Assembly (NCBI GenBank): GCA_002049495.1
Contig: LLYS01000009.1
Location: 1 to 64,000 of the forward strand
From: Epsilonproteobacteria bacterium tcs-49
GTDB lineage: Bacteria; Campylobacterota; Campylobacteria; Campylobacterales; Sulfurovaceae
Direction: 5' to 3'
DNA: 64,000 bases
Shown here: piece after piece, positions 45,150-46,895 of the stretch
Layout: each line of letters opens with the position of its first letter
How positions within the stretch are numbered: the stretch's first letter is position 1
Notes under the pieces: model-generated
Told to the model about the DNA's origin: nothing
The model's database searches: none
Seen by the model: the letters and a program-made list of their open reading frames with translations, nothing else
Translations under genes and position numbers: made by a program

Positions 45150-46040
45150 TTAGGTGAGGATATCCCTGGCCAAAGCGAAGTTGTTTGCCGCCATGAGGTG
45201 CGCTTTGCCGTGGCTTCGCATCACGGTATCAAAGATCTCTTTGCTCAGTTCAAAGCCCGTTTGGTACTCGTCGCTGCTGTTTTCGAGCCTTTGAAGCCAG
45301 AACTCGGGAATGTTTGCCCCGGGGACCCTCTTATCAAGAAAGTTCGCCGTTTTGAATTTGACGACGGGGAAGGTGCCGATGACCAGCTGGGCGTCTTTGT
45401 TCTCCGTCTGGGCTTTGGCTTCTTCAAAGATTGCTTGCAGCGGGGCGATCTGCGCCGCGTCGAAGATGGGCTGGGTGACGATAGCGACGGTGCCGCCTTT
45501 TAACTTCTTGACCATCTTTTTACGCAGGGCGTCGGGCTTGTCTACGTTGGAACCGCTGACGGTAAAGGGATAGATCGGTTTGGGCGCGACCTTAAGCTGC
45601 TTTTGCGCCAGGTCGGTACCGCTGTTGAGATAGCGGATGATTTCAAGCAGCTTTGTCGAATCCCCCTCCAAAACCGCTTTGGGGTTTGGCTGGTCGCTGA
45701 TCTTGACGCTGTCGCCCGTGATCGCCAAAATGGCGCGCACGTCAAACTCATTGGCCCCGAGCAGATCCGATTGCAGCGCGATGATGTTGCGGTCGCGCAT
45801 GGTCATGGTGGCGATGGCGGGTTTGGCAAAGTGCTGCTGCAGCCTGATTGCGGCCATGATGGAGTTAAGCTTCATCTTTGAAAGGGGACTGTCGGTGGTG
45901 GTAAAGCCGTCGACGAGTTTGTCAAGGCCCAGGTTTTTGACGTTTTCGATGATATCGCCGCACGTGGCGGAGTGTCCGGGAGTGGTTTCTAGCGTGATAA
46001 AGGTATCGTTTTGAAGTTTGTTTATAAATTGCGTAAACAT
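45150..46040 (-). CDS. metF: Methylenetetrahydrofolate reductase
   Basis: MetF reduces 5,10-methylene-THF to 5-methyl-THF for methionine synthesis, using FAD. ATG 46040 follows GCAGGAATTTC and gives 296 residues. The TIM-barrel protein keeps the catalytic Glu region (TFITLETTPGHS), the strand IATMTMRDRNIIALQSDLLGANEFDVRAILAITGD, and GGTVAIVTQPIFDA, which contains the substrate-binding Gln. MetF family assignment is firm; this is the shorter, more divergent form seen in Campylobacterota. Its message is predicted to start with the 77-nt structured element described separately. Confidence 0.86.
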   Translation of the reverse strand: MFTQFINKLQNDTFITLETTPGHSATCGDIIENVKNLGLDKLVDGFTTTDSPLSKMKLNSIMAAIRLQQHFAKPAIATMTMRDRNIIALQSDLLGANEFDVRAILAITGDSVKISDQPNPKAVLEGDSTKLLEIIRYLNSGTDLAQKQLKVAPKPIYPFTVSGSNVDKPDALRKKMVKKLKGGTVAIVTQPIFDAAQIAPLQAIFEEAKAQTENKDAQLVIGTFPVVKFKTANFLDKRVPGANIPEFWLQRLENSSDEYQTGFELSKEIFDTVMRSHGKAHLMAANNFALARDILT

Positions 46041-46069: not shown

Positions 46070-46146
46070 AGTTTTTGATAAACTCTGTTGTGAGGCTCAG
46101 ACCGTAAGGGAGGATTTGCCCTCTAAAATAGAGCTTATCAAAAACT
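46070..46146 (-). promoter_or_regulatory. Structured 5' leader of metF bounded by 17-base inverted arms
   Basis: The arms 46146-46130 and 46086-46070 pair over 17 positions with a single A-C mismatch (core TTTTTGATAA / TTATCAAAAA). Between them lie 43 bases with GAGG that can pair with either of two downstream CCUC runs (in AUCCUCCC or GAGCCUCA), a layout open to two alternative folds. A perfect TATAAT at 46169-46164 would place the transcript start a few bases before the first arm, so the whole element would be at the 5' end of the metF mRNA, ending 29 bases before the ATG. It matches no riboswitch I know. A miniature transposon is the alternative. Confidence 0.5.
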
Positions 46147-46163
46147 CTTGATATAGTCATATA

Positions 46164-46169
46164 ATTATA
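46164..46169 (-). promoter_or_regulatory. -10 box of metF
   Basis: The minus strand reads CGGTATAATTATATG with a perfect TATAAT 124 bases upstream of the metF ATG, just before the inverted-repeat leader. Confidence 0.5.
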
Positions 46170-46262: not shown

Positions 46263-46895
46263 ATGGCACGGAAACTGGCTGTTTTTGATTTTGATTCGAC
46301 GTTGATGGATGGGGAAACTATCGATTATCTCGCCGATTCACTGGGGTTGAAAAAGCAGGTGGCGCAAATCACCGAGCGCGCTATGGAAGGGGAGATCGAT
46401 TTTTTCGAAAGCCTGCAGGAGCGCGTAGGGTTTTTAAAGGGGCTTGAAGCGAAAAAGGTGGACAGTATCTGCCAAAATCTGCCCTATATGCCCGGAGCAA
46501 AAGAAACGATCGAAGAGTTAAAAACCGCCGGCTATACGGTGGTATGCTTTAGCGGCGGGTTTAGAAACGCTACGGGCCACGCCAAAAAAATTCTGGGCTT
46601 TGACAGCGACTTTTCCAATATCCTGCACGCCAAAGAGGGCGTGCTGACCGGTCTTGTGGGCGGGGATATGATGTTTGATTTCAGCAAGGGCGATATGCTG
46701 CTGCGGCTGCAGGCGCTGCTGGGGATCGACAGGGAGCGTACCATGGTCGTCGGCGACGGAGCCAACGACAAAAGTATGTTTGCCCACGCTAAGACGCGGG
46801 TGGCGTTTTGCGCCAAACCGGTGCTCAAAGAGGCGGCGAACATCATCGTCGACAGCAAAGATTTGACCCAGGTGCTGGAAAAAATTGACCTGTAA
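46263..46895 (+). CDS. serB: Phosphoserine phosphatase
   Basis: SerB hydrolyses phosphoserine to serine, the last step of the phosphorylated pathway. The 210-residue HAD enzyme begins ARKLAVFDFDSTLMDGE with the nucleophile Asp and the acid/base Asp; CFSGGFRNAT near residue 95 is motif II; and MVVGDGANDKSMFAHA near residue 160 supplies the metal-binding Asp pair. The cap domain QITERAMEGEIDFFESLQERV is the SerB type. Length matches the family without the N-terminal ACT domain. The next gene overlaps its end by 11 bases. Confidence 0.94.
   Translation: MARKLAVFDFDSTLMDGETIDYLADSLGLKKQVAQITERAMEGEIDFFESLQERVGFLKGLEAKKVDSICQNLPYMPGAKETIEELKTAGYTVVCFSGGFRNATGHAKKILGFDSDFSNILHAKEGVLTGLVGGDMMFDFSKGDMLLRLQALLGIDRERTMVVGDGANDKSMFAHAKTRVAFCAKPVLKEAANIIVDSKDLTQVLEKIDL

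Follow-up and report, generated by a model that had tools for sequence, protein, structure and literature searches.

The window, by which we mean the whole stretch of 64,000 nucleotides that was analysed, carries a metF gene, a divergent gene that we take, from knowledge of such sequences, to encode a serB-like phosphatase, and a hairpin element between the two (Table 1). The metF start codon is the ATG at 46040, located 29 nt from the hairpin arm, and the encoded protein (45150-46040) shares about 40-55% identity with the metF proteins recovered from the rest of the order, with a maximum of about 55% over the full length. The inverted repeat at 46070-46146 is built exactly as the original prediction described it, with two 17-base arms (46070-46086, agtttttgataaactct; 46130-46146, agagcttatcaaaaact) that are reverse complements bar one mismatch, with 43 bases between them. 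No other inverted repeat in the window has 17-bp arms, no more than one mismatch and a spacer below 60, and shuffling the window left none. On either strand the hairpin folds more stably than its dinucleotide-shuffled versions do (z about -3.2), and the two strands of the window copy do not differ in DNA energies. Hereafter we call the metF strand A and the opposite strand B.

Table 1. Features of the metF leader region, in window coordinates.
Feature	Position	Strand	Remark
metF	45150..46040	-	named by similarity to metF of the order
Divergent gene	46263..46895	+	on the other side of the hairpin from metF
TATAAT, possible metF -10 box	46164..46169	-	17 bp outside the arm
Whole hairpin element	46070..46146	+	+ strand (opposite metF) is the strand with the family-conserved fold
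5' arm of folding strand	46070..46095	+	variable, covarying; GAGG at its end
Conserved tip	46096..46119	+	between the 5' and 3' arms of the folding strand
Tip pairing	CTC 46096-46098 with GAG 46110-46112	+	
Tip bulges	AGA 46099-46101; GATTTGC 46113-46119	+	
Tip loop in window copy		+	GTAA, flanked by CC/GG
3' arm of folding strand	46120..46146	+	CCTC at its start

The element had been predicted to lie at the very 5' end of the metF transcript as a structured leader of no known class, possibly a methionine-related riboswitch. The TATAAT is indeed present on the metF strand (46169-46164), and with a start near 46157 the metF mRNA would open with the hairpin, but a promoter scan gave no matching -35, leaving TATAAT as the sole promoter sign at metF and the start putative. 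That the leader is structured and of no known class is borne out by the better-than-shuffled fold and by a search of Rfam 15, which returned no match to the element above a gathering threshold. The link to metF itself did not survive comparison with relatives: of the metF loci compared within the order, that of the window is the only one with a copy, and the 29 others, among them that of a relative with 15 copies elsewhere in its genome (G039), have none. The proposed alternative pairing of GAGG with either of two CCUC runs can be drawn in the window copy but does not extend to the family, where the inner CCTC is fixed. When the closing pairs vary (e.g. L062, L066, L068), this CCTC stays constant and only the outer partner follows, and we rejected the GAGG/CCUC switch because the inner run does not track the closing pairs.

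A BLAST search of the same genome recovered about 14 clear copies, from which we built a covariance model (R1). Searching the genome (2.22 Mb) with R1 yielded 17 copies at E<1e-4 and one weak match, so that the copy-number check suggested in the original prediction gave 17-18 copies, dispersed and beside unrelated genes. We take the neighbours, from their translated sequences, to be fdx, msrA, aroQ, dnaE, tyrS, folP, nnrE/purM, bcp and mscS; genes were called throughout by simple longest-ORF rules and individual contexts may be wrong. No gene theme was found among the neighbours, which across genomes also include glmM, tkt, fdh and others. Spacer-like arms were considered as well, but those of the window copy have no long second match in their own genome. 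Among 41 genomes (this one and 40 relatives), clear copies were present in four, with just one copy in one of these, and a further genome gave one weak match; copies were present in 25 of the 60 species of the genus of G039 (1-19 each) and in 7 of 249 genomes across the phylum, the numbers of copy-free genomes being upper bounds since the training copies of R1 all came from this genome and strict filters were applied in the large searches. About 190 distinct copies were collected in total, with Campylobacterota as their source in every case save one Oscillibacter pattern match. A scan of 84,980 species with the tip pattern gave at least 116 stretches, and the matches listed were all from Campylobacterota bar one in Oscillibacter that had no pairing arms. 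Carriage by viruses was also considered and set aside, with no exact tip match in viral contigs.

On strand A, the tip reads (R)CAAATCCTC-NN-NNN-NN-TCTGAG, and on strand B CTC-AGA-CC-RNM-GG-GAG-GATTTGY, in which CTC pairs with GAG and CC with GG, with two conserved bulges; RNAalifold gave an alternative tip pairing of CAGACC with GGxUUUG. The inner tip pair occurs as covarying GC/GC and AC/GT variants. Beyond the tip come four closing pairs and then the stem, interrupted by a short internal loop in roughly every second copy; the arms measure about 25 bp and the stem stops sharply near 26 bp. The B-strand foot is often TAG, in many copies though not in all. When copies were gathered by the tip alone, which gives the unbiased figure, the arms paired in 144 of 150. 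Across 49 dissimilar copies, preselected for paired arms, all 25 of the 25 arm pairs covary, with a covariation score of 0.83, compared with 0.18 for shuffled and no more than 0.23 for slid controls; cells altered on both sides numbered 490, against 151. The arm sequence is almost arbitrary provided that the arms pair, and the tip is fixed.

Several further features of this layout were seen. The outer stem, in the window copy (46070-46146) as in the family, is T-rich on its 5' side and A-rich on its 3' side (TTTTT...AAAAA). A second tip type, which on strand A reads ACAAATCCTCyCTtGGCTCACGAGCCTC in place of ...NNNGGTCTGAGCCTC, sits on the same kind of arms in L270, L259 and L261, as well as near 1964878 in G193:C1. 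In L107 (7180-7400) and L120 (reverse, 1-180), a full element is followed in tandem by another tip, with the same 3' arm repeated and its own 5' arm unpaired. Elements also recur as inverted pairs separated by about 100-250 bp (L104, L144, L176, L256-L261) in a BIME-like manner, each with two unrelated, often perfect, arm pairs.

Orthologous copies were identified at many sites, such as SDR|fdh, rpsT|glmM, aldolase|xylB and ispA|tkt and a moaB-like gene, a given site being common to up to nine species. From one species to another, the arms at a given site are strongly diverged, yet their pairing is kept. Over 18 comparisons of orthologues, some of which have a member in common, we counted 26 double changes (22 preserving Watson-Crick pairing, 4 not), where about 6 of any kind were expected, and changes amounted to 27/414 in the tip and 109/936 in the arms. 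These substitutions show selection both on pairing and on the tip.

Presence mapped on the SDR protein tree was clustered (4 changes, against 10 when shuffled). No near-identical arms were found among dispersed copies, all pairs above 0.82 arm identity sharing flanks and being orthologues. Between two species that are about 94% identical at one locus (G189 and G170), several sites are empty in one of them, and for three of these (L325, L330, L332) the arms have orthologues in a third species, which indicates loss. The whole leader often differs at empty sites, hence no exact insertion boundary can be read; at L336/L326, L344/L332 and L350/L323, the leaders beside the start codon are wholly different and the flanks about 90-97% identical. 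At the SDR|fdh site of one species (L292), apparent arm remnants are found with no tip. We also considered that the arms might be copied from the target flank at insertion, which was not supported, such a sequence being absent at four of the five empty sites; at the fifth (L343), the 5' arm alone is kept, in what looks like a partial loss. These comparisons show copies that are inherited vertically within a clade and lost patchily, and since losses are frequent even among close species, no single copy can be essential.

Copies are located in leaders and in short gaps between operon genes. Strand A is the sense strand of the next gene in about 75% of copies, the distance to the downstream start codon being commonly about 20-45 nt, and in operons the element often begins within 25 nt of the upstream stop. 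A TANAAT was present within 60 nt upstream on the sense strand in 34 of the 48 copies in divergent contexts. A small-RNA promoter driving the folding strand was considered and dropped, as no clear promoter signal for that strand was found, including in operon contexts. In G193, most recovered copies are co-oriented with replication, and so are the neighbouring genes, so that the two effects are not separable.

The mismatches within the stem are strongly polarised by strand. At stem pairs 8-26, we counted 153 G.U on B, 27 G.U on A and 81 other mismatches; 91 copies had an excess of B-type wobble and 8 of A-type (p about 6e-19 on the assumption of independent copies, which does not hold for orthologues). 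The same direction was seen in (+,+), (-,+) and (-,-) gene contexts, and the ratio of B-type to A-type wobble in operon spacers was 65 to 6. Single changes between Watson-Crick and wobble pairs in orthologue pairs gave a B-strand wobble in 24 cases and an A-strand wobble in 6. RNA folding energy was better on B in 130 of 140 copies, a figure that restates the wobble bias. We take these counts as evidence that the B strand, opposite metF, is probably the folded and selected form, and not the metF-mRNA strand that had been supposed to fold, the better-conserved fold sitting on the opposite strand. The polarity could in part be due to some mutational bias.

That a family of hairpins with a fixed bulged tip and a stem free in sequence as long as it pairs is dispersed in Campylobacterota is shown by the sequences; we lean, without great confidence, towards an old family recognised by a putative reader acting in trans. 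From the invariant bulged tip together with the clustering of copies in some clades, we infer a trans-acting factor, which would be lineage-restricted and read the tip, the arms merely holding the tip in hairpin form. As the polarity holds regardless of gene direction, the functional form would more probably be a hairpin of single-stranded DNA, or else RNA from the strand opposite metF, than an aptamer in the metF mRNA. Under this reading, an influence on metF would be a local one without specificity for methionine. A more ambitious version, in which such a factor would read single-stranded DNA hairpins or opposite-strand RNAs at as many as 19 leaders and operon spacers in one genome as a genome-wide system, is possible but tentative. 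If it is true, the stem would be structurally selected and sequence-free, and the element, rather than the gene, would determine which strand functions.

The sense bias of the copies, about 75% with the element near the start codon, suits a role in mRNA and is unexplained by a B-strand fold, which keeps alive a reading in which the element acts as sense-strand RNA. It would then be a stability, processing or translation element of mRNA leaders and operon spacers, recognised by its tip independently of any metabolite. That copies end near the ribosome-binding site of the gene to which they are sense, that TANAAT so often precedes those in divergent contexts and that the element fills two-gene spacers all agree with this, but on the sense strand the same mismatches read as A.C far more than G.U (153 to 27), the opposite of what is seen in an RNA helix, and the polarity persists in operon spacers, so that we find this reading doubtful. 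A riboswitch controlling metF with SAM, SAH, methionine or folate as its ligand would suit a structured leader at a methionine gene outside known classes, but we rejected it as very improbable given its absence at the 29 other metF loci and the unrelated genes beside other copies, to which can be added that copies occur in both orientations and that the GAGG switch is not conserved.

The original prediction had itself raised a miniature transposon as the alternative, and the multicopy, intergenic nature of the element agrees with it, but we found no target-site duplication, no recent copy-paste pairs and compensatory evolution in place. Flank repeats were close to those of shuffled flanks, the element boundaries being uncertain, and a recent MITE is not supported in the lack of both a duplication signal and near-identical dispersed copies. 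The remaining version, in which an ancient mobile repeat of MITE- or REP-like type survives as a decaying relic and template switching between the arms keeps them alike, would account for copies in both orientations, for the inverted pairs and for the patchy distribution among genera. We consider it unlikely, however, as it predicts no strand polarity and sits poorly with an orthologue tip more conserved than the arms, and no candidate mobility enzyme tracks the copies. Y1 transposases were present in 7 of the 25 genomes with copies and in 12 of the 35 without, and in none of the genomes of the genus of G039 that have the most copies (G039, G193, G210, G176, G189), so that a RAYT/REP relationship is not supported; reverse transcriptases were found in 1 of the 25 copy-bearing genomes, and this linkage was dropped.

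The open-access literature yielded no description of this hairpin family, which is apparently undescribed; a 2025 survey of REP sequences has a passage that includes Sulfurimonas gotlandica among other genomes, giving counts only (PMC12306157). The family would add a structured element to those of vent and sulfide Campylobacterota. Bacterial repeats do not usually combine a fixed tip with freely covarying arms, or have their fold opposite most downstream genes, and the tip of about 23 nt would offer a precise handle with which to fish for a candidate reader protein.

The family resembles dispersed intergenic palindromes yet lacks defining features of MITEs and of REPs. The active form of a REP is a single-stranded hairpin of one particular strand, and REPs and BIMEs are likewise dispersed intergenic palindromes found singly or in inverted pairs, but REP stems are conserved in sequence whereas the present family conserves its tip and leaves the stem free, no foot tetranucleotide is present in all copies, and the Y1 (RAYT) transposase is absent from the genomes richest in copies in the genus of G039. 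Correia/NEMIS MITEs are short intergenic elements with inverted arms of about 26 bp, transcribed as hairpins near genes. Our element is similarly short, intergenic and armed near genes, but MITE arms are conserved within a family and MITE insertions duplicate their target, neither of which is seen here. With the riboswitches and cis-regulatory RNAs of Rfam it has in common a conserved tip, covarying helices and a location mostly upstream of genes, and it differs from them in having no Rfam match, no gene theme, both orientations and a polarity on the non-sense strand. In the bottom strand of integron attC sites and in the template-strand promoters of phage N4, the folded strand is recognised via bulges or small purine loops. 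No integron core sites or cassette arrays were seen here and the stem is far longer than in the N4 promoter hairpin, but, as in these two systems, one folded strand with a bulged tip is the candidate recognition form.
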